Source of the DNA: Pseudooceanicola pacificus
GTDB lineage: Bacteria; Pseudomonadota; Alphaproteobacteria; Rhodobacterales; Rhodobacteraceae
Direction: 5' to 3'
DNA: 64,000 bases
Assembly (NCBI RefSeq): GCF_009789075.1
Contig: NZ_WNXQ01000011.1
Span: 1 to 64,000, forward strand
Shown: piece after piece, positions 1-64,000 of the stretch
Layout of the letters: every line of letters starts with the position of its first letter
Position numbering within the stretch: position 1 is the first letter of the stretch
Made by a program: the position numbers and the translations under genes
Notes under the pieces: model-generated
What the model saw: the letters and a program-made list of their open reading frames with translations, nothing else
Told to the model about the DNA's origin: nothing
Database searches by the model: none

Positions 1-38
1 GCCTTGAACTCAGGCGCATGCTGCTTCCGTTTCGACAT
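1..38 (-). CDS. IS3-family transposase OrfA, N-terminal fragment (runs off the window)
   Basis: The visible residues are MSKRKQHAPEFKA, the usual beginning of an IS3-family OrfA, whose helix-turn-helix domain binds the element's ends. The ATG is at 38-36, preceded by AGAAGGAGATCAGAG. Only 12 to 13 codons are in the window. OrfA is normally joined to the OrfB integrase by programmed frameshifting; that part is not visible. Confidence 0.7.
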   Translation of the reverse strand, partial: MSKRKQHAPEFK

Positions 39-118
39 CTCTGATCTCCTTCTCGTCGAAGATCAGCAGACTGCAAATCATAGCTTATGTCAGTGTCCGA
101 ATTTCGGGGGGTAGCTCA
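1..118 (-). mobile_element. IS3-family insertion sequence, left-end fragment
   Basis: The first 118 bases read, on the minus strand, as the beginning of an IS3-type element: a terminus starting TGAGCTACCCCCCG at about 118, a short leader, a strong ribosome-binding site (AGAAGGAGAT) and the start of an orfA. The rest lies beyond the left window edge. The plus-strand end '...GGGGGTAGCTCA' directly abuts the interior of a second IS3 orfA, so this element appears to have inserted into the neighbour. The exact end base and any target duplication cannot be verified because the other end is outside the window. Confidence 0.7.
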
Positions 119-304
119 GTTCGCCAGATCGGCGTGACGCAGCAGACTTACTATCGATGGCGCAAAGAGTATGGCGGCATGAGCCGGGACCAGCTCAAAC
201 GTCTGAAGCAGCTCGAGACTGAGAATGCCCGGCTCAGGCGCGCGGTTTCAGATCTGACGTTGGACAAGATGATCCTGACCGAGGCCGCCCGGGGAAACTA
301 CTGA
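119..304 (+). pseudogene. IS3-family transposase OrfA, N-terminally truncated
   Basis: The open frame reads VRQIGVTQQTYYRWRKEYGG and continues through a leucine-zipper-like stretch (QLKRLKQLETEN) to LTEAARGNY and a stop at 302-304. This is the second half of an IS3-family OrfA: the end of the helix-turn-helix and the coiled coil used for multimerisation. The start codon and roughly the first 30 residues are missing because another IS is inserted at about 118/119. The stop overlaps the beginning of the orfB frame, as is usual where OrfAB is made by -1 frameshifting. Confidence 0.75.
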
Positions 305-1152
305 GCCCCGCCCGCCGTCGTCGATGTATCGACCATGTGCGGCAGACCCTTGGCGTATCTGAGCGCCGGGCCTGCCGCACATTGGGACAGCATCGCTCGA
401 CACAGCGCAAGGTGCCCAACGGTTTGCCGGATGAAGAACGGCTGACCGATGACATCATCGCGCTGACGCGAGAGTTTGGGCGCTACGGGTATCGCATGAT
501 CACCGGGATGCTGAACAACAGCGGCTGGCATGTGAACCACAAGCGCGTCGAACGGATCTGGCGGCGGGAGGGGCTTAAAGTCCCGCTGAAACAACCCAAG
601 AAGGGTCGGCTTTGGCTGAATGACGGCTCGTGCGTTCGGCTCCGGCCGGAACGCCCGAACCATGTCTGGTCCTATGACTTTGTCCAGGACCGGACCCACG
701 ACGGGCGAGTATATCGCACGCTCAACATCATTGACGAGTTCACGAAGGAGGCGCTGGTGATCCGTGTCAAACGCAAGCTCAATTCTGGCGATGTGGTGGA
801 TGCCTTGATTGACCTGTTCATCCTGCGCGGTCCGCCGGAATACATACGGTCCGACAATGGCGCTGAATTTATTGCCAAGAAGGTGCGGGCCTGGATTGGC
901 GCAGTCGGTGCCAAGACGGCCTTCATTGCGCCAGGATCACCTTGGGAGAACGGTTACTGCGAAAGCTTCAACGCAAGATTCCGGGACGAGTTGCTGAACG
1001 GCGAGGTCTTCTACACGCTACGCGAAGCCCAAATCCTGATCGAGAGATGGCGTCGACACTACAACACTGTCAGGCCGCACAGCGCTCTTGGGTATCGTCC
1101 ACCAGCTCCCGAGAGCATCGTCTCGATAGACCAGAGGCCGACCATGCACTAA
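301..1152 (+). CDS. IS3-family transposase OrfB (rve integrase core)
   Basis: This is the catalytic half of an IS3 transposase. The frame is open from about 301 (LSPARRRRCIDHV); the first standard ATG/GTG-type start is at 337. Motifs in order are an HTH_21 region (RYGYRMITGMLNN, RVERIWRREGLKVP), then the DDE core: first Asp in WSYDFVQDR, second in IRSDNGAEF, and Glu in GYCESFNARFRDELL, ending with the typical NTVRPHSALGYRPP. The length and all catalytic residues look intact. It is normally translated as a fusion with OrfA, and since orfA is truncated here, production of active transposase is doubtful. Confidence 0.9.
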   Translation: MSPARRRRCIDHVRQTLGVSERRACRTLGQHRSTQRKVPNGLPDEERLTDDIIALTREFGRYGYRMITGMLNNSGWHVNHKRVERIWRREGLKVPLKQPKKGRLWLNDGSCVRLRPERPNHVWSYDFVQDRTHDGRVYRTLNIIDEFTKEALVIRVKRKLNSGDVVDALIDLFILRGPPEYIRSDNGAEFIAKKVRAWIGAVGAKTAFIAPGSPWENGYCESFNARFRDELLNGEVFYTLREAQILIERWRRHYNTVRPHSALGYRPPAPESIVSIDQRPTMH

Positions 1153-1186
1153 CAATCAAACCGGACCACTCGATGGGGGCAGATCA

Positions 1187-2070: not shown

Positions 2071-3256
2071 TCAGGCGTCGGCACGCGGAAGGCGGATTTC
2101 GGACAGAACCTCCTCCGTGTGCTCGCCCAGCCGCGGTGGCAGCCGGCGCACCCGGCCGGGGCTGTCCGAGAACTGGACCGGTATCCGGAGCGTCACGACG
2201 GCGCCCTCTGTCGGGTGCTCGTGGCGCTCGAAATACCCGGTTTGAACCAGATAGGGATCAACCAGCAGATCCTCCAGGCTGTTGGCCGGTCCATTCGGCA
2301 CGTCGGCCGCGTCGAACCGGCGGCGCCACTCGGCGGTTGTATTCCCCGCGATTGCCTCGGCGAGGAACCAATATAACTAGTCAATGTGATCGGTGCGCAA
2401 CTCTGCTGTGGCAAATCGTGGATCGTCGCGCAGCTCGGGCCGGCCTATGGCGTCGAAGAGACGCAGCCACTGGTTGTCCATCGCCGCCATCACACAGATG
2501 TGCCCGTCCTGCGTTGGATAAGGCCGATGATGGGGCGAGAATACCCGGCTGTAACCCATGCCCAGATCGGGCCGGTCGAGCGTTGCGCCCCAGAGATGCT
2601 CGATCAGATTGAAGTTGACCATCGCATCCATCATCGGCACGTTTACCTGCTGCCCGTGGCCGGTGCGCTCGCGCCAGACGAAGGCCATCGCGATGGACGA
2701 TGCCTGGATGTAACCGCATAGTTGTCGGCGATTACCGTGGGTAATAGCGCGGCTCATCGGTGGCCCGGGCCATCATCCCGGCTACGCCGCTGGCGCCCTG
2801 GATCACATCGTCGAAAGCAAGCCAGTCGCGGCGCTCGCCATCCAGCCGGAAGCCAGAAGACGAGGCATGAATGATGCGGGGATTGACCGCGCGGATCGCC
2901 TCGTAGTCGACGCCCAGCCGTTCGGCGGCGCCGGGGCGTATCGAATGCACCAGCACGTCCGCGGAACGCACCAGATCAAGGAGCGCGGCCCGCGCGTCGG
3001 GTTTCTTCAGGTCGAGCACGACCGAGCGTTTGTTGCGGTTTGTATTGAGGAACAGTGCCCCCATCTTCGGGTTGCGCGACGGTCCCACCTGGCGTGTGTA
3101 GTTGCCGTCGGGTGACTCGATCTTGATGACGTCGGCCCCCATGTCGCCGAGGATCTGGATCGCCACCGGTCCAAGCACGTTGACCGAAAGATCAAGCACC
3201 CTGTAACCCGCAAGCGGTCCGTCCCCCTCGGCTGGCTGCTGCGGCTGACTGTCCAT
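2071..3256 (-). pseudogene. Class III (CaiB/BaiF) CoA-transferase, decayed
   Basis: Nearly the whole protein can be read but in pieces. The start MDSQPQQPAEGDGPLAGYRV at 3256 follows an AAGGGAAAAG ribosome-binding site. The N-terminal frame (LGDMGADVIKIESPDG, LNTNRNKRSVVLDLKKPDA) ends prematurely at about 2732 in EPRYYPR-stop. The next segment (LCGYIQASSIAMAF onward) is reached only after two small indels near 2715-2740. It is then cut by an in-frame TAG at 2377-2379 (TDHID-stop-LYWFLAEAIAGN). The last part (DVPNGPANSLEDLLVDP) is in the same frame and ends at 2071. Members transfer CoA between acyl donors and carboxylic acids; this copy cannot make a full-length product. Confidence 0.8.
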
Positions 3257-3502
3257 TTTCTTTTCCCTTTGCGGTATCGCACCCTTCGAGTCAGCAATGC
3301 GCGCCGTAGTCTGGCGGTCAGTCGACCCGCGACCCAAGGGCTCAGCGCCGCGAGCGAAGCTTGCGATCGCTGTATTGCTGTTCTGACGGCGTGCGTGGTC
3401 GTGGCGCTTCCGTGACGAACTTGTCCCATAGGGCCTCCTTCCATTCCTGCGAAAGGATCACACCATTAAACCGTGGGATCAAACACCTAAGCCGAAGAAA
3501 TC
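3257..3502. other. Intergenic stretch between divergent pseudogenes
   Basis: It lies between the minus-strand CoA-transferase pseudogene and the plus-strand binding-protein pseudogene. It probably held both promoters and the start and signal peptide of the binding protein, which can no longer be read. I see no intact gene. Confidence 0.4.
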
Positions 3503-4621
3503 GTGATGCCGGCGATCGTCGCCATGTCGGGAGCGATCGCCGTGACCGGACAGGATGCGCAAAAGGGGATCGCAGTTGCCCTTGAGCACATCAACGCCGA
3601 TGGCGGCGTCGCCGGTCGGCCGCTGAAGATCCAACTTTACGACACACAGGGCAATCCCGGGGTGGTGCGCCAGGTGATGGAGCGGTTGACCCGCCTCGAG
3701 CGGGCTCCGGTCATCCTTGGCTGCGAGATCAGCGCAGGCACATCGGCTGCGGCGCAGTTCGCCGAGCAGGCGCGGGTTCCTCACCTGAACTCGCCGGCGG
3801 TGTCGGCCGAGCTCCTCGAGCGCGGTTACAAATGGTATTTCTCCGATCAGATCACAGCCGATACCGAGGCGGCCACGGTCGTGGAATTCTTCGAACACCT
3901 GATGACGCAAGGCGACGTCGTCCCGGCGTTGCTTTATGAAGACAGCCCGCGCGGCGCCGGAACCATCGAGCGGATCGAAGTTCTGCTGGAGGAGCGGGGC
4001 ATCGAGATCGCCGCCAGCGCGCCGTATTCGCGCAGCGATCGCAACCTTCTGCCGCCGGTCAAGCGGGTGCAGACATCGAGTGCCAACATGGTGATCTGGG
4101 CCGGCTACACCGAAGATGTGGTGACCAAGCTCCAGGCAATGCAGCAGCATGACTTCAAGCCCTACATTGTCGGAATCAGTGGCGGTTCGGGTGATGTGCG
4201 CACCCCGCAACTGGTGGACAGGGGCTTCGTCGAGGACGTCAATCTCAGCACGGTGGACTACTAAAATCCCGACATGGACCGCGCCCAGCGTTTTGTGAAG
4301 GCTTACGAGTAACGGCACGGCATCGTGCCGTCAAGCTATGCGTCGATGTGCAACCGCGGTGTCTACACGCTGAAGGCCGTGCTGGAGAAGACGCTTGAGT
4401 CCGGCCAGAAACTGACGACCGAGAACCTTCGCGCCGCCATCCTTAAGATCGACATCCCCGGCGATCAGCTGATCTCGCCGTTCTCGCGGATCAAATTCGA
4501 CGAACACGGCAGGAACGTCGGATCGCAGAACCTGATCGCGCAATGGAAGAACGGCGGCACGAAAAAGGTCACGATCTGGCCGCCAGAGGTGGCTGTGGAA
4601 GAGCCCAATCCTCTGAACTGA
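3503..4621 (+). pseudogene. Branched-chain amino-acid-type ABC substrate-binding protein (LivJ-like), decayed
   Basis: The body is clearly a periplasmic-binding-protein type I (Peripla_BP_6): SGAIAVTGQDAQKGIAVALE, HINADGGVAGRPLKIQLYD, PVILGCEISAGTSAAAQFAE and VIWAGYTEDVVTKLQAM. No signal peptide precedes residue 1. Two in-frame stops break the C-terminal lobe: TAA at 4262-4264 (STVDY-stop-NPDMDRAQRF) and TAA at 4310-4312 (FVKAYE-stop-RHGIVPSSYA). The frame then continues cleanly to the natural stop at 4619-4621. The substrate was probably an amino acid or organic/aromatic acid. The permease genes expected of a Liv system are absent. Confidence 0.8.
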
Positions 4622-4647
4622 TGCGAAAACTATAACCGGGGCCCAAG

Positions 4648-5334
4648 ATGAAGCTGTCGATCGAGTCTCTCGTCTCCGGTTACGGTCTGCTCGACGCGCT
4701 CCACGGCGTCAGCATCGAGATCGGCCGAGGGCGAGGTCGTGGCTGTGATCGGACCGAACGGCGCGGGCAAATCTACCCTTCTGCGCACGATTTCGGGCCT
4801 TGTGGCCGCCCGTTCCAGAGCGATCCGCCACGATGGCAAGGAAATCGGCGGTTTTGCCGCCAGCGAGATTCCGCGCCTCGGCCTCGTCCATGTTCCTGAG
4901 GCGCGGCACGTCTTCGGGTCACTCACGGTCGAGCAAAATCTGATCGTGGGTGCGAGCGCCGCACTCGACGCGAAAGACCGAAAGGACGCCCTTTCCGATG
5001 CTGAGCCAGAAGGCCCGCGAACTTGCCGGAGGGCTCTCAGGCGGTCAGCAGCAGATGCTGGCGATCGGGCGCGCTTATGGCCCGGCCCAGCATGATCATG
5101 CTCGACGAGCCGTCGCTCGGCCCCGCGCCTCTGATGGTCGAGCAGATGTACGAGGCCCTCGACGGTCGGCGCCGCACCGGCCTGAGCATTCTTCTGGTGA
5201 AACAGGATGTCTACATGGCGCTGGATTTCGCCAGCCGCGCCTATGTTCTGGAAAACGGGACAATCGCCCTCGCCGCAGCCTCTGACGTCTTGCGCCACGA
5301 CGATCACGTGCGCCGTTCGTATTTGGGAATCTGA
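4648..5334 (+). pseudogene. LivF-type ABC transporter ATP-binding protein, frameshifted
   Basis: All ATPase landmarks can be read, in three different frames. The start MKLSIESLVSGYGLLDALHG is at 4648. Walker A (GPNGAGKST) needs a shift near 4730. The signature LSGGQQQMLAIGRA needs another shift near 5000, next to an apparent short deletion. Walker B (MIMLDEPSLGPAP) and the C-terminus (VRRSYLGI) need a third near 5080. A functional LivF would energise uptake with LivJ, LivH, LivM and LivG. It lies 26 bp after the LivJ-like pseudogene, so both were one operon. Confidence 0.8.
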
Positions 5335-5408: not shown

Positions 5409-6563
5409 TCAGCCCCGTAGCGCCGAGATGCCCAGGGCCCCCTGTGCCAGAAGCAGCGCCTGAAGCTGGTTGGTGCCTTCAGCGATCGTGAGATGTCGCA
5501 CATCGCGATAATAGCGCTCGACGGGGAAATCACGGGTGTATCCGGCCCCGCCGTGCACTTGCAGGGCAGTCTCGCAAACCCGCAGAGCCGTATCGGAGTT
5601 GTGACGCTTGGCCATGGAACAGGCCCGGCCGCGATCCGGTGCCCCGCGATCCAGCGCGTCAGCGGCCCGGCACGCCAGCAACCGCGAGGTTTCCACGCCA
5701 GTCAACATATCTGCGATCATCTGCTGGACCAGTTGAAACCCGCCGATCTTGCGTCCGAACTGTTCTCGCGCGCCCGCATATCGCAGCGCCGCCTCATAGG
5801 CGGCAATTGACAGGCCCAGGCAGGTGAAAGAAACGAAACAGCGCCCCACGTTCAGATAATGCTTGGCGATGGCGAACGCCTCGCCCTCGGCGCCGATCAG
5901 GTGGTCTGCGGGCAGCAATACGTCCTCAAACAGCAGCTCGCCTAGCGGGCATGAATTCATGCCCATGCTGCGGACCTCTCGGGTTGAAAACCCTGCTGTT
6001 CCCGCCTCGACCACGAAGGCCGATACCTCCGCGCGTTCGCCGTCGCCCGACCGCGCGAAAACCACCCCGAGATCGGCCCCGGTCCCGTTGGAGATATACA
6101 GTTTGCGTCCGTTCAGCCGCCAGCCATCACCGTCGCGCCGGGCCCGTGTTTCCACGTTGCTGGCGTCCGAGCCGACGTTCGGCTCGGTCAGCGCAAAAAA
6201 GGCTGTCTTGCGACCCGAAACCAGATCGCCCAGCCACATTGCCTGTTGCTCCGGCGTTCCATGCTGCGCGACGATCATCAGGACAAGGTTCGACGTGCTG
6301 ACGATGCTGCGCAGCGACGGCCATACCTGAGACAGCTCGCACAGCAGCGCGCAATATGTCAGATAATCAAGCCCGGCACCGCCTTGCGCCTCTGGCAAAA
6401 GACCGCCCAGCAGGCCGAACTCGCCCATCTTCTGCAACACTTCGGGCGGCGGCGGACGGTGGGCATCCTCGTGCGCCTCGACCAGGGGCGCCACCTCGGC
6501 GTCAAGGTATTTGCGGAAGCTGCGCCGCGCCGTTTCCTGCCAGTCGTCCAGCTCAAACTGCAT
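5409..6563 (-). CDS. Acyl-CoA dehydrogenase
   Basis: A 384-residue FAD-dependent acyl-CoA dehydrogenase, which introduces the alpha,beta double bond into an acyl-CoA and passes electrons to ETF. Visible motifs are the N-terminal helical domain, FFALTEPNVGSDASN (flavin/substrate region), LNGRKLYISNG, AREQFGRKIGGFQ, LQVHGGAGYTRDFPVERYYRD and IAEGTNQLQ, whose Glu is at the usual MCAD-type catalytic-base position. The ATG at 6563 follows GGAGTGAGGACCG. It is the last gene of minus-strand cluster A, 6 bp after the CoA-transferase stop. The substrate is unknown; the local context suggests a short branched or dicarboxylic acyl-CoA. Confidence 0.9.
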   Translation of the reverse strand: MQFELDDWQETARRSFRKYLDAEVAPLVEAHEDAHRPPPPEVLQKMGEFGLLGGLLPEAQGGAGLDYLTYCALLCELSQVWPSLRSIVSTSNLVLMIVAQHGTPEQQAMWLGDLVSGRKTAFFALTEPNVGSDASNVETRARRDGDGWRLNGRKLYISNGTGADLGVVFARSGDGERAEVSAFVVEAGTAGFSTREVRSMGMNSCPLGELLFEDVLLPADHLIGAEGEAFAIAKHYLNVGRCFVSFTCLGLSIAAYEAALRYAGAREQFGRKIGGFQLVQQMIADMLTGVETSRLLACRAADALDRGAPDRGRACSMAKRHNSDTALRVCETALQVHGGAGYTRDFPVERYYRDVRHLTIAEGTNQLQALLLAQGALGISALRG

Positions 6564-6569
6564 CGGTCC

Positions 6570-7691
6570 TCACTCCAGCTTTTCGGCTTGGTCCAGAATT
6601 TCGGCCTGATGCTCGCCCACTGCCGGGACGTGGCCCGCCGGATCACTCATCCCAGCCATCGGCACCGGGAAGGCCATCACCTGGGCCGCGCCGGCTGAGC
6701 GCACCATCCCGCGCGCCTTGAGCTGCGGGTCCCGGGCCAGATCCTCCAGCCCGTTGACCGGGGCGAAGGGAACATCCTCGGCCTCGAAGATCTCCGCCCA
6801 ATGCGCATAGGGACGCGCGGCGATCAGCGGGGTCAGGGCGGCGCGGATATCATCCGTGCGGTCGGTGCGTGCGGCGAAGTCGTCAAGCGCAGGATCGTCG
6901 AAGCCCGTCATCCCGGTGGCACGGATCAGGCGGCGGAAGAAATGCGTCTCGATCGCGCCGATGGTGATGTATTTACCGTCGGCGGTCGCGAAGATACCAT
7001 AGGCGGCGCGGCGCAGGATATCGGCCTTTGTGATCTCGCGCCCGGCCTGGCGTCCGGCGTCCCACACACCGTAGCGCGGGGCGACCCAGCTGGCCAGCGC
7101 GTCGGTGATCGCCACGTCCAGATACTGGCCCCGCCCCGTGGCGTCGCGTCCGCGCAACGCAGCAAGAATGGTGATGATGGCATACATGGCTGCCGAGAGA
7201 TCCCCGATCGGCACGCCCGTCGTGTATTCAGGCGGTCCGTCGGGCGCGCCCGAGATCGCCACCGCGCCCGCCATCGCCGCGTAGTTCAGATCATGCCCCG
7301 GCCAGTCGCGCGCCGGCCCGGTCTGACCATAGCCGCTGACCGAACAGTAGACGAGGCCGGGATTGAGCGCCGAAAGCGTCTCATAGTCGATGCCCAGCCG
7401 CGCGGTCACGCCCGGGCGATAACCCTCGATCACGACGTCCGCCCGTTTGGCCAGCCGCAGGAAAGCCGCGCGGTCTGTGTCATCCTTTAGGTTCAGGGCG
7501 ATGCTTTTCTTGCCGCGGTTCACGGCGGCAAAGAGGCCGGGGAACATGGCGCGCGCGGCGTCGCCCGCGGGACGTTCGACCTTGATGACCTCGGCCCCCA
7601 TCTCGGCCAGTTGCTGCGTTGCATAGGGCCCAGGCAGAAGCTCGGTCAGATCGAGAACGCGAAGCCCCGAAAGCGGTGCAGTGCCAGTCAT
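6570..7691 (-). CDS. CaiB/BaiF CoA-transferase (alpha-methylacyl-CoA racemase-like)
   Basis: A class III family protein of 373 residues. It shows the N-terminal LSGLRVLDLTELLPGPYAT, the MGAEVIKVERPAGD motif, IEGYRPGVTARLGID, and the active-site Asp at about residue 134 in WPGHDLNYAAMAG. The GHD-NY context is typical of alpha-methylacyl-CoA racemase as well as some transferases, so it may epimerise a 2-methylacyl-CoA rather than move CoA. The start at 7691 has GGGAGAGC upstream and its ATGA overlaps the stop of the lyase gene, implying translational coupling. An upstream in-frame start (7742) lies inside that lyase gene and is less likely. Confidence 0.85.
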   Translation of the reverse strand: MTGTAPLSGLRVLDLTELLPGPYATQQLAEMGAEVIKVERPAGDAARAMFPGLFAAVNRGKKSIALNLKDDTDRAAFLRLAKRADVVIEGYRPGVTARLGIDYETLSALNPGLVYCSVSGYGQTGPARDWPGHDLNYAAMAGAVAISGAPDGPPEYTTGVPIGDLSAAMYAIITILAALRGRDATGRGQYLDVAITDALASWVAPRYGVWDAGRQAGREITKADILRRAAYGIFATADGKYITIGAIETHFFRRLIRATGMTGFDDPALDDFAARTDRTDDIRAALTPLIAARPYAHWAEIFEAEDVPFAPVNGLEDLARDPQLKARGMVRSAGAAQVMAFPVPMAGMSDPAGHVPAVGEHQAEILDQAEKLE

Positions 7692-12603: not shown

Positions 12604-12619
12604 CGGCTTAGCCGCCTCC

Positions 12620-53316: not shown

Positions 53317-53339
53317 GTGGTCTCCTCCTCTTTTTCAAG

Positions 53340-53359
53340 ACCCCGCTATTGCGCGGGGT
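53340..53359. terminator. Intra-operon hairpin between dctM and dctP
   Basis: A perfect 7-bp stem (ACCCCGC / GCGGGGT) with a 6-base loop in the 66-bp gap between the dctM stop and the dctP start. It may protect the 5' end of dctP mRNA or partly attenuate read-through. Confidence 0.5.
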
Positions 53360-53382
53360 TCGTCACGGCCGGGATGGCCAAA

Positions 53383-54690: not shown

Positions 54691-54700
54691 CGTTCCACTC

Positions 54701-55222: not shown

Positions 55223-55263
55223 CACTATCTCTTCCCTGTCGTAAAAAGGGCCAATCCGCTTGG

Positions 55264-56040: not shown

Positions 56041-56068
56041 GACCGCCCCTCCCTTTGGCGAAGATTCG

Positions 56069-57223
56069 TCAGTCAGTGAAGAGCGCCCGAGCAATCCCGT
56101 TCTTGTGTATCTGGGTCGTTCCCCCGGTGATCGTCAGCATCCGCACATCCCTCACCATCCGCTCCAACGGAAGCGAACCGAAATAGCCGTAGCCACCGAA
56201 CATCTGCATGGCGTCATGGGTGACGCGCTGTGCCATTTCGGTGGCCTGAACCTTGGCGATCGAAGACAATGTTGGATCGGCCTGGCCGCGGTCGATCAGC
56301 GACAGCGCCGTATAACACAACGACCGCGCGGCCTCGATCTGCACCTTCATGTCCGACATCATCCATTGCAGCCCCTGCATCTCGGACAGCGCCTTGCCGA
56401 ATTGCCGACGGGTCTTCATGTAGTCGCGTGCAAGGTCGAACGCCCCCTCGGCGACACCAAGCGCCAGTATCCCCATGCCGACGCGCGTGGCGTTATAGAC
56501 ACCCAGCGGGCGGACAAAGCCGCTGGAGTTGCCGGCCAGCCCTTCGGTCACGACGTTTTCGGACGGCACCCGCACATCGTCGAAATGGATCTCGCATTCG
56601 TTGCAGCCGCGCGCGCCCATCTTCTGTTCAAGAATATGGACCGAAACGCCGGGGCTTTTGCGGTGCACCAAAACGGTTCCGATGCCTCGCGCGCCTTTGC
56701 TTTCGCAGAACCGAGCATAGACCAGAAGGTAATCGGCCCTGTCGCCGAAAGTGGTAAAGATCTTGCCGCCGTTCAGCACAAACCCGTCCCCGTCCGGGCG
56801 CAGCGATGTCGTCACCGCGGTGGCGTCCGACCCGGCCTCTGGCTCGGTCCAGGAGATCGCGCATTCGATCTCGCCCGCGGCGAAGCGGGGCAGGAAAGAC
56901 TGCTTCAACGCCTCGCTGCCGCAGGTGGCGATGATCCGGGGCGAGACGTTCTGATCGTGAACGATCAGCGCGGTATTGAAATCCACCTTGGCCAGTTCCT
57001 CGATCACGAGATAGCAATCCACCAGCGGCGCACCGCCACCGCCGTATTCTTCGGGAATGGTCATGCCCAGATAGCCAAGCGCGGCCAGCCGATGGTGGTT
57101 TTCCTCGGGGTAGATGCCGTCGCGGTCCCAGCGTGCGGCGCGGTCCCGGAATTCCCCGAGCGCCAGTTTTCGCGCGGCATCCTTGAGAGCGACCTGTTCT
57201 GTCGTTAGCAACGAGGGATGCAT
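56069..57223 (-). CDS. Acyl-CoA dehydrogenase family, subunit lacking a catalytic Glu
   Basis: 384 residues with normal ACAD architecture: AISWTEPEAGSDATAVTTSL, LNGGKIFTTFGDRADYLLVY, TRRQFGKALSEMQGLQWMMS and MFGGYGYFGSLPLERMVRDV. The MCAD position is Gly (ITGGTTQIH). The isovaleryl position is Thr246 (VYNATRVGM), where the neighbouring ACAD has Glu. It probably needs a partner subunit or uses another residue. It begins 5 bp after the stop of the ACAD at 57229, its likely partner. Confidence 0.85.
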   Translation of the reverse strand: MHPSLLTTEQVALKDAARKLALGEFRDRAARWDRDGIYPEENHHRLAALGYLGMTIPEEYGGGGAPLVDCYLVIEELAKVDFNTALIVHDQNVSPRIIATCGSEALKQSFLPRFAAGEIECAISWTEPEAGSDATAVTTSLRPDGDGFVLNGGKIFTTFGDRADYLLVYARFCESKGARGIGTVLVHRKSPGVSVHILEQKMGARGCNECEIHFDDVRVPSENVVTEGLAGNSSGFVRPLGVYNATRVGMGILALGVAEGAFDLARDYMKTRRQFGKALSEMQGLQWMMSDMKVQIEAARSLCYTALSLIDRGQADPTLSSIAKVQATEMAQRVTHDAMQMFGGYGYFGSLPLERMVRDVRMLTITGGTTQIHKNGIARALFTD

Positions 57224-57228
57224 CCGCC

Positions 57229-58404
57229 CTACCCCCGCCGCTGGTCGAAGCTGTGGCCGTAGACCATGGCGGCGATCGTATTGCGCAGGATTTCGACGGT
57301 GCCACCGCCAAGCGCGAAGCCGCGCGCGTCACGCACCATACGTTCCAGCGGGTATTCGCGCGTGTAACCATTGTGACCGTGGATCTGCAGCGCTTCGTTC
57401 GTGACCCTCTGCGCCATTTCGTTGGCGTAAAGCTTGGCCATGGTCGCATCCATCGGATCGGGAAAGCCGTTCGGCGCGGGGTTGGTCGCGGCCCGATAGA
57501 CCATCAGACGCGCAGCATGGATCTGTGTGGCCATGTCGGCGATTTTCCATTGCAGGCCCTGGAATTCCTTGATCGGGCGCCCGAACTGATGGCGAATCTC
57601 GGAATACGACTTTGCAGCATCGAAAGCGCCCTGCGCCAGCCCCACGCACATCGCTGCGTTGCCCACCCGCTCGGGTCCGAAACTGCTCATCAACAGCGCG
57701 AAGGAGCGCGAGCTTTCCGGGTCCCCTTCGACCAGCACATCCTCGGGACCGGCCTTGTAGTTTTCAAGGATAATCTCGGCCTCGGTCAGTCCCCGGCCAC
57801 CCATCTTCAGCGATATGTGGCCGATCCGAGCGCCCGGCTTCTTCAGATCGACGACAAAGGCACCAATCCCCTTCGCCCCGCTGGCCTTGCCGAAACGGCA
57901 GAAGACCAGCGCATAATCGGCCACATGGGCGCCCGTGGACCAGCATTTGTTGCCATTCAGCACCCATCCGTCGCCGTCCCTTGTGGCCGTGGTGCGCAGG
58001 TCTGTCACCGCCGACCCCGCCTCGGGCTCGCTGATGGCGATTGCGATGAATTTCTTGCCGGCCGCCATGTCTGGCAGGAACCGCTTTTTCTGCTCGTCGC
58101 TGCCCAGAACGCTGATTGCCCGGGATGGGCCGTTCAGGTAGAGTTGCGAGACCAGCGCCGTGTTGAAACAGACCCGCGCCATTTCTTCCAGAAACACCGT
58201 GCCCTGGATCACTGGCGCGCCGGAGCCGCCGTATTCTTCAGGGATGAACATTCCCAGATAGCCAAGTTCGGCCAGCTTGTCGCGGTTCGCGGCTGGAAAC
58301 TCTTCGGCTTCGTCCCAATGGGCGGCCCTGGGAGCAAACTCGCGCTCAGCCAGCTTGCGTGCCTCGTTGCGAAAATCCTCCAATTCCGGATCGAGCTTGA
58401 ACAT
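57229..58404 (-). CDS. Acyl-CoA dehydrogenase (helix-G Glu type)
   Basis: 391 residues: FIPEEYGGSGAPVIQGTVFL, IAISEPEAGSAVTDLRTTAT, LNGNKCWSTGAHVADYALVF, IRHQFGRPIKEFQGLQWKIA and IHGHNGYTREYPLERMVRDA. The MCAD position is Gly (LGGGTVEIL). Glu245 in SFGPERVGNAA is the candidate base at the isovaleryl-CoA dehydrogenase position. In the flavin loop the usual GSD is GSA. It probably forms a pair with the Glu-less ACAD encoded downstream. It starts 1 bp after the CoA-transferase stop. Confidence 0.87.
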   Translation of the reverse strand: MFKLDPELEDFRNEARKLAEREFAPRAAHWDEAEEFPAANRDKLAELGYLGMFIPEEYGGSGAPVIQGTVFLEEMARVCFNTALVSQLYLNGPSRAISVLGSDEQKKRFLPDMAAGKKFIAIAISEPEAGSAVTDLRTTATRDGDGWVLNGNKCWSTGAHVADYALVFCRFGKASGAKGIGAFVVDLKKPGARIGHISLKMGGRGLTEAEIILENYKAGPEDVLVEGDPESSRSFALLMSSFGPERVGNAAMCVGLAQGAFDAAKSYSEIRHQFGRPIKEFQGLQWKIADMATQIHAARLMVYRAATNPAPNGFPDPMDATMAKLYANEMAQRVTNEALQIHGHNGYTREYPLERMVRDARGFALGGGTVEILRNTIAAMVYGHSFDQRRG

Positions 58405-58405
58405 G

Positions 58406-59596
58406 TCAGTAGGTGTCCTTTGATTGAGCAGAGGGCAGGTCCTGTTCCAGTGCGGTCAGGATGCGCGCCGTATCGGCGCCTACGGTTGGTGCGGGGATAG
58501 GGGTGACCTGTGGGTGAGCCGCGAAACGCATCGGCAGCCCTGGAACAGGGACCGTGCCCAGGTCTGGATGCGGAAGGTCATGGATCATGCCGCGGGCGCG
58601 CATGTCATCGTCCGACACCACCTCAGCGAGCGTGCGCACCGGGGCGCCCGGCACATGTGCGCTGCTCAGGGCCGCGAAAATCTCGGCGCGGGTCTGACTT
58701 GAGGTCCACGCCGTCACCCAGCCATCGACTTGGGCACGCCGCGCGCAGCGCGCGGGTCCCGCGGCCAGTTCGGGATCTTCGGCCAGATTAGGGCGACCCA
58801 TGGCCCGGGTCAGCTGCTGCCAGTGGCGATCATTCAGGCACATGATGGCCACCTGCCCGTCGCGCGCCGGAAACAGGTCGTAGGGTGCGACCTTGAGCAC
58901 GGCCTGACTGTTGCCGGCCCGGTCGGCGAACCCGTCAGGCGCCAGCAGATAGCTTGCGACATTCGACGCCAGCGCGTGGTGCGTGACGTCCTGCATCGCG
59001 ATCTGGACAAAATCCCCGCGCCCTGTCGCGCCGCGCGCATGCAACGCCGCCATAATGCCACCAAAAAGGTGGATACCGCCCAGAAAATCGGTGATCGCTG
59101 CGCCGCATTTCACCGGCGGACCATCGGGAAACCCGGTCACCGACATCAGCCCGGTCAGGGCCTGAATAGGAAAATCCATCGCCGGCGCATCGCGATAGAC
59201 GGAATCGGCCGCGTAGCCCTTTCCTGACCCCATGACCAGGCGCGGATTGCGGGCACAGAGTGTTTCCCACCCCAGCCGCAGTTTCTCCATCGTACCGGGA
59301 CGGAAATTCTCGATTAGAACATCGGCCGAATCTGCCAGCGCCAGCAGGGCGCTGCGCCCGCCCTCGGACCCCAGATCGAGCGTCACGCTCTGTTTGCTGG
59401 AATTGAGCATCATCGCTGCGGGGTTCTCGCGCCCGCCCGCGATGCCGCGGATACTGTCGCCGCCGGGCGGCTCGACCTTGATGACCTCGGCCCCCATGAG
59501 CGCGAACATCAGACCGCAATAGGGCCCAAGGTAGACCTGCCCGAGGTCGATCACCCGAAGACCGGCCAGCGGGCCACTATCGGGCGCCGCGTTCAT
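58406..59596 (-). CDS. CaiB/BaiF-family CoA-transferase
   Basis: 396 residues from the ATG at 59596, whose ATGA overlaps the preceding gene's stop. Motifs: LAGLRVIDLGQVYLGPYCGL, LMGAEVIKVEPPGGDSIRGI, LIENFRPGTMEKLRLGWETL, and the catalytic Asp141 in DAPAMDFPIQALTGLMSVTG. It moves CoA from a donor such as succinyl-CoA or an acyl-CoA product to the incoming acid. As the second gene of cluster G, it probably activates the TRAP-imported substrate. The frame extends far upstream inside the neighbouring gene but without a plausible start. Confidence 0.9.
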   Translation of the reverse strand: MNAAPDSGPLAGLRVIDLGQVYLGPYCGLMFALMGAEVIKVEPPGGDSIRGIAGGRENPAAMMLNSSKQSVTLDLGSEGGRSALLALADSADVLIENFRPGTMEKLRLGWETLCARNPRLVMGSGKGYAADSVYRDAPAMDFPIQALTGLMSVTGFPDGPPVKCGAAITDFLGGIHLFGGIMAALHARGATGRGDFVQIAMQDVTHHALASNVASYLLAPDGFADRAGNSQAVLKVAPYDLFPARDGQVAIMCLNDRHWQQLTRAMGRPNLAEDPELAAGPARCARRAQVDGWVTAWTSSQTRAEIFAALSSAHVPGAPVRTLAEVVSDDDMRARGMIHDLPHPDLGTVPVPGLPMRFAAHPQVTPIPAPTVGADTARILTALEQDLPSAQSKDTY

Positions 59597-60363
59597 GATC
59601 CGACAAAGCGCGGCGGGCGCTTTTCCTTGAAAGAGGCGACCGCCTCGCGGTGATCTGCGGTCTGCATGATATGGGCTTCGGCGGTTGCCTCGATCTCGAG
59701 ATAGGTCGCGAAATCGCAATCCATGCCACGGTTCAGCATCGACTTGCCCAGCCCAAAGGCTCGGGTCGGCCCTTCGGCCAGACGCGCGGCCAGCGCATCG
59801 GCCTCTGCGTCGAGCGCGTCTTCTTCGTGGATTGCGTGGACGATCCCAAGGTCGTGCGCCTCTTGGGCATCGATCACCTGGGCCGTCAGGAACATCGCCT
59901 TCGCCCGCTGCGTCCCGACCGTCCGCGCCAGCAAGTAAAGCCCGCCACCGTCGGGCACGATCGCCACGCGCGCATAGGCCTGGCAAAAGCGGGCCGAGGG
60001 CGCGGCCAGGATCACGTCAGCCAGAAGCGCAATGTTGAACCCCACGCCAAAGGCCGGCCCGGCAACCGCCGCGACGACCGGCTTTTCAAGATCATATAGC
60101 ATCCGGGTTACGCGGTGCTGTTGTTTCATGCGGTCCCGCATGGCCACAGGCGAAGAACCGGCGAAAGTGCTGATATCGCCTCCGGCGCAAAACGCGCCCC
60201 CGGCGCCCGTGATCAACAGCGCGCGCACGCGGTCATCGTCGCGCACCTGGGTGACGATGCGTTCCATCTCTTTGCGTGCGTCTTGATCAAGGGCATTCTT
60301 CTTCTCGGGAAAATCGAAAGTCATCCGACCAACGCTTTCCGAGCGGCTGTAGAGCAATGGCAC
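59593..60363 (-). CDS. Enoyl-CoA hydratase/isomerase family protein
   Basis: 256 residues from a GTG at 60363 that follows GGGAGGAGGAAGC closely; a longer start at 60453 lacks such a site. Crotonase features: FDFPEKKNALDQDARKEMER, ALLITGAGGAFCAGGDISTF, GPAFGVGFNIALLADVILAA, and YARVAIVPDGGGLYLLART, again the PDGG loop of PaaG-like isomerases. The hydratase Glu pair is not evident. First gene of cluster G, divergent from the nitronate monooxygenase-like gene. Confidence 0.87.
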   Translation of the reverse strand: MPLLYSRSESVGRMTFDFPEKKNALDQDARKEMERIVTQVRDDDRVRALLITGAGGAFCAGGDISTFAGSSPVAMRDRMKQQHRVTRMLYDLEKPVVAAVAGPAFGVGFNIALLADVILAAPSARFCQAYARVAIVPDGGGLYLLARTVGTQRAKAMFLTAQVIDAQEAHDLGIVHAIHEEDALDAEADALAARLAEGPTRAFGLGKSMLNRGMDCDFATYLEIEATAEAHIMQTADHREAVASFKEKRPPRFVGS

Positions 60364-60586: not shown

Positions 60587-61552
60587 ATGTACTCCGACAC
60601 CCCTCTCGGCCGCTTGCGCCTGCCTGTGATCTGCTCGCCCATGTTCCTGGTGTCCGGGCCGGATCTTGTCGTCGCCCAGTGCAAAGCCGGCGTCATCGGC
60701 AGCTTTCCGGCGCTGAACGCACGCGAGTCCGAAGGTGAACCGCCGCTGCTTGGAGCCTGGCTCAAGCGCATCACTGAAGAGCTTGACGCGCACAATCAGG
60801 CCAATCCCGATCGGCCCGCCGCGCCATTCGCGGTCAACCAGATCGTCCATCGATCGAATGATCGGATTGAGCGGGACGTCGAAATATGTGCGCGCTGGAA
60901 AGTGCCTGTCTGGATCACATCAATGGGCGCACGGGAAGACGTCAACCAGGCGGCACATGAGTGCGGCGGCACTGTACTGCACGATGTAATCAACAACAAA
61001 TACGCCAGGAAAGCGATCGACAAGGGCGCCGACGGCCTGATCGCGGTCTGCGCCGGCGCTGGCGGCCACGCCGGGGCCTTGTCACCCTTTGCGCTGGTTC
61101 AGGAAATCCGGAAATGGTTCGATGGTCCGCTTGCCCTGTCCGGGTCCATCGCGACCGGGCGCTCAATTCTGGCGGCGCAGGCCATGGGTGCGGATTTTGG
61201 GTATATCGGATCCCCCTTCATTGCCATGACCGAGGCGGTCGCGTCGGAGGAGTACAAGCAAATGATCGTCGAAGGCGGGGCCGATGATATTGTCTATACC
61301 GACTATTTCAGCGGCGTGCATGCCAACTATCTGAAACCGTCGGTGCGGGCGGTCGGTCTCGATCCGGACAACCTGGCCGGGATCGGCAACAAACTCGATC
61401 TGGCCACCGGCGACATTCGCCCCAAGGCCTGGCGTGACATCTGGGGCAGCGGTCAGGGGATCGGAGCGGTGAAAGAGGTGATGACCACGGCGGACTACGT
61501 CGACCGTCTCGACCGGGAATACCAGGGCGCCAAAGATGCGCTCTGTTCCTGA
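60587..61552 (+). CDS. Nitronate monooxygenase-like FMN flavoprotein
   Basis: 321 residues of the NMO/2-nitropropane dioxygenase family with a TIM-barrel FMN-binding fold: VICSPMFLVSGPDLVVAQCK, VIGSFPALNARESEGEPPLL, LIAVCAGAGGHAGALSPFAL (with the conserved His), LALSGSIATGRSILAAQAMG and ADFGYIGSPFIAMTEAVASE. Family members oxidise nitronates or act as enoyl reductases and NADH:quinone reductases, so the real substrate is uncertain. It is monocistronic, facing a terminator. The ATG 60587 follows AAAGAAGAAATAGACA. Confidence 0.88.
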   Translation: MYSDTPLGRLRLPVICSPMFLVSGPDLVVAQCKAGVIGSFPALNARESEGEPPLLGAWLKRITEELDAHNQANPDRPAAPFAVNQIVHRSNDRIERDVEICARWKVPVWITSMGAREDVNQAAHECGGTVLHDVINNKYARKAIDKGADGLIAVCAGAGGHAGALSPFALVQEIRKWFDGPLALSGSIATGRSILAAQAMGADFGYIGSPFIAMTEAVASEEYKQMIVEGGADDIVYTDYFSGVHANYLKPSVRAVGLDPDNLAGIGNKLDLATGDIRPKAWRDIWGSGQGIGAVKEVMTTADYVDRLDREYQGAKDALCS

Positions 61553-61623: not shown

Positions 61624-62826
61624 TTAGCGGTCGTTTTGGTTGACGATCAGTTCTGCATTTTCGGGTAGTTCCGAAACAATGTTCACCTCGTCAGCACGAA
61701 TTCGTGCATGCAGTTTGAAGGTATCAGCGGCGGCGGCTTCCGCGGCGGAAGCGTCGGCACCGTCTTCCAGCACAAGCGAGAGGCGGATCATGTCGCGATC
61801 GTTCTCGCGCGTTACCACGGCCTGCGCGGCCTTTGCGCCCGGCGTGCCGATGACAACTTCTTCAACCACGCGCGGATAAACGAAAATCTCGCGCACTTTG
61901 ACCGCTGCCCCGACCCGTCCCTGCAATGCTGAAATCCGGCTGACGGTGCCATCCGCGTTGCTTTCCAGGGCAAAGGCGCTGTCGCCGGTGCCGAACCGGA
62001 TCATCGGCCAGGTGGCATCGCGCGCGGTCACGACAACCTCGCCCGGTTCACCATGGGCGACCTGTTCGCCGCTGATCGGATCGCAGATCTGCACCACGCG
62101 GTCGGGATGAACCAGGTAGCCTTTGCCGCCATCCTCATAGGCAACAAGGCCCAGATCGGCGGTGGCATAGGCGGCCCAGGTGGACACGCCGTATTCGGCC
62201 TCGATCCGGCGGCGCTTGGTCATCCAGTCGCCCATCTCACCGCCGAGGAAGGCTGTCTTCACCTTCCATGCGTCGCGGCCATAGGTTTCGATCACCTTGT
62301 CCGCCAGCGTCAGGAAAAACGCGGTCGAGGCGCAGATCGAAGTCACGCCGGTTTCGACGATGATCTGTGCCTGAAGCTCCGTATTGCCGACGCCGCCGGG
62401 GATTACGGTGGCGCCAGCAGCCTGTGCGGCTTCGTCGAACAAAAGCCCCGCGGGCACCAGATGATACATCCAGGTGTTCAGGATGATACCCCCCGGCCCC
62501 ACGCCTGCCGACTTGAACAGCAGGTCAAGGCCGTGGCCGCCGCCGCCCGAAAGGGCCGGTTCGAAAATCGGGCCGGGGGACACGTAGATCCGCCCGATAT
62601 CCTTCAGATCAGACGCCAGAAACCCGCCAAAGGGCGGGTTCTCGCGTTGGATTTTCAGAAGTTCTTCCTTTTTCATCACTGGAAGACGCGAGAGGTCCGT
62701 CACCGATGTGACGGCTGCCGGATCGAATCCGGCAGCCGCAAATCGCGATTTCAGGCCAGGAGCCTTGTTGGCCGCAGCGGCATAGGCTTGAGCTATATCT
62801 TGGTAGATATCATCAGACATTTCCAT
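61624..62826 (-). CDS. PaaK-like AMP-binding protein (phenylacetate--CoA ligase family) with atypical motifs
   Basis: 400 residues with the ANL/PaaK fold: IYVSPGPIFEPALSGGGGHG, LNTWMYHLVPAGLLFDEAAQ, TSICASTAFFLTLADKVIET, AFLGGEMGDWMTKRRRIEAE, AAYATADLGLVAYE and MIRFGTGDSAFALESN. The phosphate-binding SSGTTG loop is replaced by SGGGGHGLD, and the catalytic Lys near the end (EGKAxR in PaaK) is not visible (LPENAELIVNQNDR). It may be a specialised ligase or a CoA-thioester-forming enzyme using only part of the cycle. Co-directional with the hydratase 22 bp upstream. Confidence 0.78.
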   Translation of the reverse strand: MEMSDDIYQDIAQAYAAAANKAPGLKSRFAAAGFDPAAVTSVTDLSRLPVMKKEELLKIQRENPPFGGFLASDLKDIGRIYVSPGPIFEPALSGGGGHGLDLLFKSAGVGPGGIILNTWMYHLVPAGLLFDEAAQAAGATVIPGGVGNTELQAQIIVETGVTSICASTAFFLTLADKVIETYGRDAWKVKTAFLGGEMGDWMTKRRRIEAEYGVSTWAAYATADLGLVAYEDGGKGYLVHPDRVVQICDPISGEQVAHGEPGEVVVTARDATWPMIRFGTGDSAFALESNADGTVSRISALQGRVGAAVKVREIFVYPRVVEEVVIGTPGAKAAQAVVTRENDRDMIRLSLVLEDGADASAAEAAAADTFKLHARIRADEVNIVSELPENAELIVNQNDR

Positions 62827-62847
62827 GCCTCCTCGTCCAATCGGGCG

Positions 62848-63657
62848 TTAAATCGGGCAGTCCTTGCGGAAGTTCGGCGTGCGCTTCTCGCGGTGCGACA
62901 ACACACCCTCCTTGACGTCCTCGCTCATGAAGCCAAGCATCTCCAGCGCGGTCGACGCATCAAAGATCGGCCCGGCCTGGCGCAGCCAGTTGTTCAGCGA
63001 ATACTTGGTCCAGCGGATCGCGCTTTGCGAGCCGTTGGCCAGTTCGACAGCCGTGTCCAAAGCGATCTGCTGAAGCTCGTCATCCTCGACGCACATTGAC
63101 ACCAGACCGATACGCTCGGCCTCTTCGCCCGACACCGGCTTGCAGGTCATCAGATAGTATTTCGCCTTGGCCATCGAGGTCAGCAGCGGCCAGATGATCG
63201 CCGCGACGTCACCGGCGGCAACACCAAGGCGGGGATGACCATCGACAATCTTGGCCTTCTTTCCGGCGATCGAGATATCGGCCAGAATGGCAACCACAAG
63301 GCCCGCGCCGGCCGCAGGGCCATTGATCGCGGAAATGATCGGCTTGTTGCAGTTGATGATGTTATAGACGAGATCCTTGGCTTCTTTCCACGTCTTCATG
63401 ATCTCGTGCGAATTGCCAATCATGTTTTCGATCAGGCTGAAATCACCGCCGGCGGAAAACGCCTTGCCCGCGCCGGTCACGATGACCGCGTTAATGTCGG
63501 GGTCGCGGTCGATGTCGATCCACATGTCGGTCATCTGGGTGTGGGTTTCCGCATCCACGGAATTGAAGGTCTCGGGCCGGTCGAAGGTGATGCGCAGCAC
63601 GCGATCCGCCGGGTAGTCAAAATTCAGTTTGTCGTATTTTGCATAACGATCCGACAT
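62848..63657 (-). CDS. Enoyl-CoA hydratase/isomerase family protein
   Basis: 269 residues from the ATG at 63657, preceded by CACGGAGGAAATAG. Crotonase fold: FDRPETFNSVDAETHTQMTD, AVIVTGAGKAFSAGGDFSLI, NGPAAGAGLVVAILADISIA, KIVDGHPRLGVAAGDVAAII and PVSGEEAERIGLVSMCVED. The GHPRLGVAAGDVAAIIWPLL loop marks a subgroup distinct from the two cluster G homologues; the standard hydratase Glu pair is not apparent. Its neighbours are an ACAD upstream and a PaaK-like gene downstream. Confidence 0.88.
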   Translation of the reverse strand: MSDRYAKYDKLNFDYPADRVLRITFDRPETFNSVDAETHTQMTDMWIDIDRDPDINAVIVTGAGKAFSAGGDFSLIENMIGNSHEIMKTWKEAKDLVYNIINCNKPIISAINGPAAGAGLVVAILADISIAGKKAKIVDGHPRLGVAAGDVAAIIWPLLTSMAKAKYYLMTCKPVSGEEAERIGLVSMCVEDDELQQIALDTAVELANGSQSAIRWTKYSLNNWLRQAGPIFDASTALEMLGFMSEDVKEGVLSHREKRTPNFRKDCPI

Positions 63658-63685
63658 AGTTCTATTTCCTCCGTGGGGTATTGAA

Positions 63686-64000
63686 TTAACCAGGCAGCCC
63701 GAGGACCGCCTTGGACAGGATGTTTCTCTGGATTTCGTTCGATCCACCGTAGATCGTGGTGGGTCTGGCCTTGTAGAAGCTGGCCAGAACATCGACATTT
63801 ATGTTGCCGACCTGAAGCGGCCCGATGGAGCCGCCATCGGGGCCGGCTGCTTCGATCATCAGCTCGGTGATGCGCTGGAAGCATTCAGTCACCCAAATCT
63901 TCAGCATGGAGACATCCGCACCCAGCGTCTCGCCACGTTTGAGCTGATCTGCAAAACGGGCATAAAGTGCGGCATGATCTTCCACATCCAGTGCCGCCTG
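63686..64000 (-). CDS. Acyl-CoA dehydrogenase, C-terminal part (runs off the window)
   Basis: The last about 104 residues of an ACAD: DVEDHAALYARFADQLKRGE, LGADVSMLKIWVTECFQRIT, NINVDVLASFYKARPTTIYG and GGSNEIQRNILSKAVLGLPG. The MCAD-position Glu is Gly (YGGSNEIQ), so any catalytic base must be on helix G, outside the window. The gene enters from the right edge with no start visible. It lies 28 bp before the hydratase start and is probably in the same operon. Confidence 0.85.
   Translation of the reverse strand, partial: QAALDVEDHAALYARFADQLKRGETLGADVSMLKIWVTECFQRITELMIEAAGPDGGSIGPLQVGNINVDVLASFYKARPTTIYGGSNEIQRNILSKAVLGLPG

Follow-up and report, generated by a model that had tools for sequence, protein, structure and literature searches.

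Introduction

Among the known systems which the locus considered here resembles most are the side-chain aldolases of steroid catabolism, Sal–Shy and Ltp2–ChsH1/ChsH2. In the parts of the two reports drawn on here, a thiolase fold with a tyrosine as base and no thiolase cysteine is associated with a DUF35/OB-fold partner and with MaoC partners, some of them inert (PMC12329534; PMC11321319). The same traits recur in a stretch of 64,000 nucleotides from Pseudooceanicola pacificus (contig NZ_WNXQ01000011.1, positions 1 to 64,000), hereafter the window, which is rich in acyl-CoA dehydrogenases (ACADs), CoA-transferases and TRAP importers. An initial annotation, made from the sequence alone, had regarded the whole stretch as one catabolic super-cluster parallel to steroid side-chain degradation. 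On balance, we lean toward a different reading, in which the window is part of the catabolic cargo of a family of conjugative plasmids from marine Roseobacteraceae, a 31.6-kb core (20480–52114) is one unit, and the stretch 31565–52114 is one regulon. The positions of the modules (A to H) and of the other features are collected in Table 1.

A Self-Transferable Plasmid Shared by Marine Bacteria

The contig which contains the window, C3 (107,835 bp), was compared piece by piece with contigs of relatives and with pMaD1, a plasmid of Marinovum algicola DG898. Its pieces are 99.956–99.985% identical over 87 kb to a contig of Primorskyibacter flagellatus (106,878 bp), 99.955–99.99% identical over 100 kb to a contig of Pseudooceanicola atlanticus (107,712 bp) and 99.97–99.98% identical over 93 kb to pMaD1, the remaining end pieces being less alike (97.8% over 19.9 kb, 94.3% over 7.7 kb and 99.3% over 13.6 kb). 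As a control, two 5-kb chromosomal stretches, taken from large contigs of the P. pacificus genome, were compared with both relatives and with one further genome (G002), giving identities of 73–90% (pieces longer than 250 bases). When two pieces of the window (24.0 and 21.0 kb) were searched by megablast against 72,556 plasmids, pMaD1 was retrieved at 100.0% identity, and plasmids of Sagittula, Sulfitobacter alexandrii and Paracoccus at 96.8–97.8%. Among the matches listed, the thiolase-like protein g52 (50957–52114) is 100% identical in P. flagellatus and P. atlanticus and 92–98% identical in genera such as Lutimaribacter, Phaeobacter, Salipiger, Roseovarius, Sulfitobacter and Heliomarina.

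Plasmid pMaD1 (254,955 bp) carries genes for ParA, ParB and RepC-9, a MOBP relaxase and a VirB/D4 system, the combination of RepABC, relaxase and VirB/D4 genes which characterizes conjugative RepABC plasmids. P. flagellatus and P. atlanticus share its 15.6-kb transfer region at 100% identity, and so does P. pacificus, where the region lies on contig C6 and the window on C3. The ParAB-RepC segment of pMaD1 is diverged in P. pacificus (76% identity on contig C21, and 87% for RepC on C6). As the transfer region is identical and the replication segment is not, the plasmid, or its transfer part together with the cargo, has moved recently, with exchange of the replication unit. The window appears to be a segment of a large plasmid which can transfer itself and is nearly identical in several marine bacteria. 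It is not a local super-cluster, and the initial annotation had missed that the region is plasmid cargo moving nearly unchanged between species. The same plasmid also carries genes for thiamine, pantothenate and NAD biosynthesis (L138, 26716–37933).

A Co-Inherited Core and Optional Modules

The 31.6-kb core behaves as one unit and is co-inherited, its order being kept in diverged plasmids at 79–87% DNA identity. On plasmid pDSM110277_a of Sulfitobacter pontiacus, g25 to g52 stand in identical order at 79–82% DNA identity, with only g39 reduced to a remnant, and the core is followed by one small gene and then by a PaaK-like block. Neither module A nor module G adjoins this core, and megablast of the window pieces gave no match to either of them on that plasmid. 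On the 577-kb contig of G234, the stretch examined starts at g27 and keeps the gene order up to g52, only g40 being a short remnant. Parts of the core also recur elsewhere: a contig of Marinosulfonomonas joins the ACAD pair-to-thiolase part of module F directly to modules B and C, and G146 has homologues of g27, g33/34, g41/42, g43 and g44 all within 14 kb. In Roseovarius indicus, all modules are present and the order of the core is kept. Decay is complementary in the latter species and in the window: next to its module A, R. indicus has annotated full-length versions of the CoA-transferase and ABC transporter genes which survive as remnants at 2071–5334 of the window, and module G, intact in the window, is in frameshifted pieces in R. 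indicus.

Judging from its gene neighborhoods, the block from 61.6 kb on (module H) appears to be a separate module. Thiolase-locus counts given here refer to the 80 loci listed for homologues of g52. A PaaK-like gene is found in 46 of them: 13 also have the g44 type of MaoC-like protein, 8 are on core-locus records and 25 are on records without a core locus listed, for instance a 3.1-Mb contig of Shimia biformata. Past the window, module H continues with an ACAD, a MaoC protein, a transglutaminase-like protein, a CoA-transferase, a double MaoC protein and a thiolase-like/OB-fold pair. The annotations of S. pontiacus and R. indicus place a transglutaminase-like protein within this PaaK/ACAD/thiolase block, as in pMaD1 (L135, 23130–23849).

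With modules A and G absent or decayed in relatives and the terminal block probably separate, the idea of a single system spanning all 64 kb is not supported. The initial annotation had made its proposal depend on the genes being co-inherited or co-regulated, and for the core both are supported, 31.6 kb being co-inherited in order and three promoters sharing a conserved operator.

A Conserved Operator and a Predicted IclR Regulon

Comparison of 14 intergenic stretches revealed a palindrome, CACATATGTG, with three exact copies in the window, all in promoters (g38, g40 and g44/g45), against a mean of 0.02 in 100 shuffles; when one mismatch is allowed, six copies are found versus 0.79 expected. 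In S. pontiacus, R. indicus and G234, each of these promoters again has an exact copy, the middle one in G234 preceding the g40 remnant and g41. In four-sequence alignments, the palindrome columns are invariant (10 out of 10) at each promoter, versus 39, 32 and 38% elsewhere, and the longest invariant run (18, 14 and 16 columns) includes the palindrome at each of the three. G106 has one exact copy upstream of a g45 homologue (55% identical), with homologues of g43 and g25 (45 and 60% identical) beside it, and an exact copy is found in 15 of the 17 closest thiolase loci (L039–L055), which are largely near copies.

A conserved palindromic operator at the promoters of several operons is characteristic of IclR regulons, and g43, an IclR-family protein with homologues (E ≤ 1e-40) in 7 out of 295 genomes of the family, P. 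pacificus included, is its predicted binder. The three conserved promoters support a single regulon comprising two TAXI importers, a CoA-transferase, MmgE/PrpD, two split dehydrogenases, an inert MaoC and a thiolase-like/OB-fold pair. A variant, CACATATATG, is found at 17570–17579, upstream of the module A receptor gene, and also in R. indicus (L141, 19592); on these two sequences, it may be a second or related operator. In modules B and C, two intergenic alignments and a perfect-dyad scan gave no shared palindrome. Three plasmids share long conserved blocks without a clear palindrome at 21284–21426 (g25) and 25971–26105 (g28/g29), namely TGTCAACTGTTAGAAAA; ATTGCGAGAA-AATCGAAC, and these are possible g25 sites.

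Active Sites of the Encoded Enzymes

For the catalytic glutamate of ACADs, we assumed the two places which we take to be established in the family. In alignments, g10 and g16 keep the C-terminal glutamate, g27, g32, g42, g46 and g58 have a glutamate at the helix-G place, and g41, g45 and g57 have one at neither. The Glu-less ACAD partners described in the initial annotation are thus genuine for g41 and g45, and g57 joins them. The adjacent pairs g41/g42 and g45/g46 have the ChsE-type arrangement with one Glu-less subunit, their oligomeric state and activity being predicted. Although devoid of the catalytic glutamate, g57 (56069–57223) has all three ACAD domains at full length and adjoins the Glu-bearing g58; the two are perhaps a third split dehydrogenase of another kind.

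Among the MaoC-like proteins, g14 keeps the Asp/His dyad, g31 keeps the histidine and has an asparagine for the aspartate, like its homologues from S. pontiacus, R. indicus and Paraburkholderia, and g44 lacks both residues, as do seven aligned homologues. The catalytically dead MaoC proteins initially proposed are therefore recognizable in g44 and, through its asparagine, in g31, and g14 has to be removed from the group. In Paraburkholderia, a g44 homologue immediately precedes a g31 homologue, and in the window the two genes are 14 kb apart; their adjacency in Paraburkholderia suggests that g31 and g44 may form one heteromer, for which ChsH1–ChsH2, as presented in the part of the report drawn on, is a precedent (PMC11321319). 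On plasmids of Pontibrevibacter and Achromobacter, the g44 type stands beside an ACAD, a CaiB-type transferase, an IclR protein and an importer, and these two stretches contain no close g31 homologue.

In the thiolase-like g52, the tyrosine aligned with Tyr302 of CtSal is kept, an alanine replaces Cys304, His-Pro-Gly is kept, and no cysteine stands at either thiolase place; here we rely on what we take to be the thiolase cysteine places and on PDB entry 9myr, whose row shows YDCY, presumably being CtSal. The tyrosine motif is YDAF in g52 and YDSF in g33. Across 103 aligned rows, YDAF occurs in 89, YDSF in 11, YDCF in 2 and YDDY in 1, and the combination YDAF/VHPG/HGNG is exact in 72. As in the Sal and Ltp2 aldolases, an OB-fold (DUF35) partner adjoins each thiolase-like gene, and a homologue of it is found in 79 out of the 80 loci. 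Both partners, g34 and g51, are separate short proteins with a CxxC-x10-CxxC motif, corresponding to a Cys4 zinc site. In the published description, as far as drawn on here, the residue which partners the aldolase tyrosine is a histidine in Ltp2 and a cysteine in Sal (PMC12329534).

Proposed Pathway and Substrates

A pathway can be proposed on the basis of protein families and residues. The cargo consists of successive modules, and the majority combine an importer and CoA activation with a tailored round of beta-oxidation. After import of carboxylates through the TAXI TRAP systems, the class I CoA-transferase, the synthetases of modules B and C and the CaiB-type transferase would make and shuttle CoA esters. 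The split ACADs, combining a Glu-bearing with a Glu-less subunit, would introduce the double bond into acyl-CoAs which ordinary enzymes cannot accommodate because of their bulk or branching, and a heteromeric MaoC (g31 with g44) would hydrate or handle the enoyl-CoA. The resulting 3-hydroxyacyl-CoA would be cleaved by the OB-fold/thiolase-like pairs in a retro-aldol step and not by thiolysis, a reading proposed because these proteins lack the thiolase cysteines and retain the tyrosine of the aldolases. The short-chain dehydrogenase/reductase (SDR) and the thioesterase would finish or correct, and g43 would control the set via CACATATGTG. In module A, the citryl-CoA-lyase-like protein, whose best structure match is 6hxp, would catalyze the retro-Claisen cleavage of a tertiary 3-hydroxyacyl-CoA.

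Branched, alicyclic or isoprenoid carboxylates are our guess for the substrate class. Elsewhere on pMaD1 (L137, 4967–10361 and 28003–40982) are genes for AtuA (E = 1.5e-144), three biotin carboxylases, an HMGL-like protein, an Old-Yellow-type reductase and a second citryl-CoA-lyase-like protein. P. pacificus has a 5.4-kb piece with the genes for AtuA and carboxylases on its contig C7 at 100% identity, and an AtuA gene likewise accompanies a g44 homologue in Paraburkholderia and Achromobacter, at distances of up to 2 and 14 kb. AtuA and the carboxylases offer only a hint toward isoprenoid acids. The contexts in Azospirillum, Sphingobium, Actibacterium and Aromatoleum have single parts in common with the window and revealed no substrate. 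A bolder version of the proposal, which we hold tentatively and consider rather unlikely as a whole, is a hitherto undescribed self-transferable pathway in which 31565–52114 and modules B and C together form one CACATATGTG regulon, natural branched, alicyclic or isoprenoid acids enter via TAXI TRAP systems and are cleaved by a new type of retro-aldolase (Tyr and His, YDAF, separate OB-fold, heteromeric inert MaoC), and the whole has been swept nearly unchanged by conjugation through marine Roseobacteraceae.

Weighing the Alternatives

Independently useful acid-degradation modules may instead have piled up on plasmids, co-inheritance reflecting recent common plasmid descent and not a shared pathway. 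This explanation is a serious possibility, although we do not favor it: modules A and G come and go among relatives, module H is found on records without a core locus among the loci listed, as in S. biformata, the four importers are unlike each other, and the near-identical plasmid copies are not independent. Moreover, g39 and g40 have each been lost in one relative and so are not essential to the unit. Common descent accounts less readily for the persistence of the core order and of three identical operators at 79–87% DNA identity, and for core parts recurring together in rearranged, diverged loci. Other observations, like these losses, weigh against a core acting as one regulated pathway. 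As g31 lacks the catalytic aspartate, the core itself is left without an intact MaoC and, as the partner of the aldolase tyrosine is an alanine or a serine, the cleavage chemistry may differ or be absent. No CACATATGTG accompanies the g43 homologues in the stretches read for G146 (20 kb) and L148 (3.8 kb), the g44/g45 site of G089 differs at one position, its g40 site being exact, and g25 could be the regulator instead of g43. Eleven exact copies (in L069, L076, L090, L093, L095, L096, L097, L100, L102 and L105, plus the second match in L050) were rejected as operators; all lie inside the homologue of a 285-residue MaoC gene of module H, which shows that the motif can be present without serving as an operator. 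Finally, AtuA is outside the window and outside the core. These points notwithstanding, we retain plasmid cargo with a co-inherited and co-regulated core as the preferred reading.

Degradation of steroid or bile-acid side chains, with ring genes elsewhere or lost, is improbable. The parallel drawn in the initial annotation survives in the split ACADs, the thiolase-like/OB-fold pairs and the inert MaoC proteins; it breaks down on the specific markers examined and appears to be architectural only. Structural matches do point toward steroid enzymes: the best PDB matches of g45 and g46 are 6wy8_A (Tcur3481) and 4x28_A, which we take to be steroid-type split ACADs, g52 matches first 4u4e and then 9myr and 6ok1, presumably Sal and Ltp2, and g38 best matches 6coj, presumably IpdA, barely above glutaconate CoA-transferases. 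By E value, NCBIfam places g41 and g45 closest to IpdE2, and g42 and g46 closest to PimC. However, the scores are under the curated cut-offs (g45, 152.2 versus 450 for IpdE2 and 113.1 versus 652.7 for PimD; g46, 220.5 versus 623.85 for PimC), and g38 has an alanine at the position which we assume to be Glu105 of IpdA, in a column where two aligned entries differ (Glu versus Ala). Neither g34 nor g51 is of the Shy type, in which a DUF35 protein with a Cys3His zinc site is fused to MaoC, KshA_C has no match in the P. pacificus genome (66.85% complete), and the substrate would enter by TRAP systems. Nor do the YDAF and YDSF motifs of g52 and g33 agree with YDCY, or YDHF with a second tyrosine, of Sal and Ltp2 in the part of the report consulted (PMC12329534). 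Ring degradation of the IpdAB/IpdC type, suggested by g37/g38 and g61, was also rejected, g38 having the alanine just mentioned and g61 matching FabK-type enzymes best. Still less probable is a plasmid-borne duplication of ordinary fatty-acid beta-oxidation genes. Most families are indeed those of beta-oxidation, but Pfam scans of 50 window proteins found no FadB-type multifunctional protein, the thiolase cysteines are missing, the ACADs are split with Glu-less subunits, and acid importers replace fatty-acid uptake.

Gene Content of the Window

In total, 64 genes were called in the window and 50 proteins were scanned with Pfam, and the gene counts of the initial annotation all proved correct. 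Ten complete ACADs start at 5409, 12620, 23565, 28710, 39841, 40896, 43738, 44867, 56069 and 57229, an eleventh being truncated by the window edge at 64000. Three class III CoA-transferases are intact (6570, 24762 and 58406) and a fourth is broken (2377–3256), likewise in pieces in the pMaD1 annotation. There are three ADP-forming synthetases (8503, 21427 and one split as 26106 + 27545), two thiolase-like/OB-fold pairs (29900/31077 and 50577/50957), three MaoC-like proteins (10607, 28210 and 42938) and three crotonase-family proteins (55264, 59593 and 62848). Of the four TRAP importers, two are of the DctPQM type (14554–17470 and 52183–55267), their two small permease genes, outside the Pfam scan, being assigned from the pMaD1 annotation, and two of the TAXI type (31565–34569 and 46143–49323). 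Also present are a class I CoA-transferase pair (34616/35380), MmgE/PrpD (38411), a citryl-CoA-lyase-like protein (7688), a PaaK-like ligase (61624) and two IclR regulators (20480 and 42085).

The ACAD C-terminal domain (PF00441) is matched 65 times in the 3.89-Mb draft genome, so that a stretch of 64 kb should hold 1.07 matches; the window has 11 (Poisson, 2e-8), about ten times the genome mean. Since such genes cluster in general, this density indicates clustering and not a single system. Contig C3 holds 14 of the 65 matches and another 8 are on C7, the contig which includes the 5.4-kb piece identical to pMaD1. At the place of the IS66-type insertion (Table 1), no transposase is annotated in R. 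indicus.

Table 1. Features of the 64,000-nucleotide window
Feature	Position	Strand	Basis
IS3-type transposase (rve domain), near contig edge	337..1152	+	Pfam rve/HTH_21
Decayed remnant: class III CoA-transferase pieces, branched-chain ABC transporter pieces	2071..5334	.	Fragmentary open reading frames; separate pieces in pMaD1 annotation
Module A: ACAD, CoA-transferase III, citryl-CoA-lyase-like, ADP-forming synthetase, MaoC, AMP-ligase, ACAD, SDR, TRAP DctM/Q/P	5409..17470	-	
IS66-type insertion separating module A from core	17783..20147	.	IS66 name from relatives' annotation; transposases in pMaD1
g25 IclR-family regulator	20480..21283	-	Pfam IclR_C
Module B: ADP-forming acyl-CoA synthetase, ACAD (helix-G Glu), CoA-transferase III	21427..25970	-	Pfam, residues
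Module C: split ADP-forming synthetase, MaoC g31, ACAD (helix-G Glu), thiolase-like g33, OB-fold g34	26106..31481	+	
Module D: TAXI TRAP permease and receptor, class I CoA-transferase subunits	31565..36318	-	
Operator CACATATGTG upstream of g38	36414..36423	.	
g39 probable membrane protein	36465..37805	-	No Pfam match; membrane reading from sequence
Operator CACATATGTG upstream of g40	38316..38325	.	
Module E: MmgE/PrpD g40, Glu-less ACAD g41, partner ACAD g42	38411..42044	+	
g43 IclR-family regulator, proposed operator binder	42085..42903	-	
g44 MaoC-like protein without Asp/His dyad	42938..43420	-	
Operator CACATATGTG between g44 and g45	43628..43637	.	
Module F: ACAD pair g45/g46, TAXI receptor and permease, 4HBT thioesterase, SDR, OB-fold g51, thiolase-like g52	43738..52114	+	
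Module G: TRAP DctP/M/Q, crotonase, ACAD g57, ACAD g58, CoA-transferase III, crotonase	52183..60363	-	
g61 NMO/FabK-type flavoprotein	60587..61552	+	
Module H start: PaaK-like ligase, crotonase, ACAD cut by edge	61624..64000	-	

Comparison with Known Systems

The novelty of this locus is a mobile, modular cargo for carboxylic-acid catabolism with a conserved regulon in its core. A search of titles and abstract beginnings, a scope which leaves the main 2015 Marinovum plasmid paper outside, gave no description of the cluster and, in the text available for a survey of Sulfitobacter plasmids, word counts for acyl-CoA, fatty acid, TRAP, degradation and catabol were all zero (PMC13386836). If our reading is correct, conjugation provides marine bacteria, some of them associated with algae, with a common kit for carboxylic acids which is complete and regulated, and whose thiolase-like cleavage enzyme has an active site fitting neither thiolases nor known steroid aldolases. 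Thanks to the conserved operator and to cultured hosts (M. algicola DG898, S. pontiacus DSM 110277 and R. indicus DSM 26383), the question of the substrate is directly testable.

Regarding the dehydrogenases, the locus shares adjacent large and small ACAD subunits, one of them without the glutamate, with the heteromeric enzymes which we take to be named ChsE4–ChsE5, IpdE1–IpdE2 and PimC–PimD, and differs from IpdE2, PimC and PimD in scoring far under their curated cut-offs. With respect to Sal–Shy and Ltp2, as they appear in the parts of the reports drawn on, the second active-site residue is an alanine or a serine and not a cysteine or a histidine, His-Pro-Gly is kept, and the OB-fold protein is separate with a Cys4 site (PMC12329534; PMC11321319). 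At the level of gene sets, and as far as the sections consulted go, the window resembles the thn operon of anaerobic naphthalene degradation, where a CoA-transferase and ACADs act on a cyclic dicarboxylic acid (PMC11659651), and the mrc genes of limonene degradation, which unite two MaoC-like proteins, an enoyl-CoA hydratase, a 'citrate lyase' and ACADs in one island (PMC4109377), whereas gene order and importers differ from both. As for the vehicle, the conjugative RepABC-2 plasmids of roseobacters, in the portion of the report used here, likewise have type IV secretion genes and long-range synteny across genera (PMC5513947); unlike in those plasmids, the conserved cargo is here a catabolic block of about 100 kb, copies of which are 99.95–99.99% identical over 87–100 kb.

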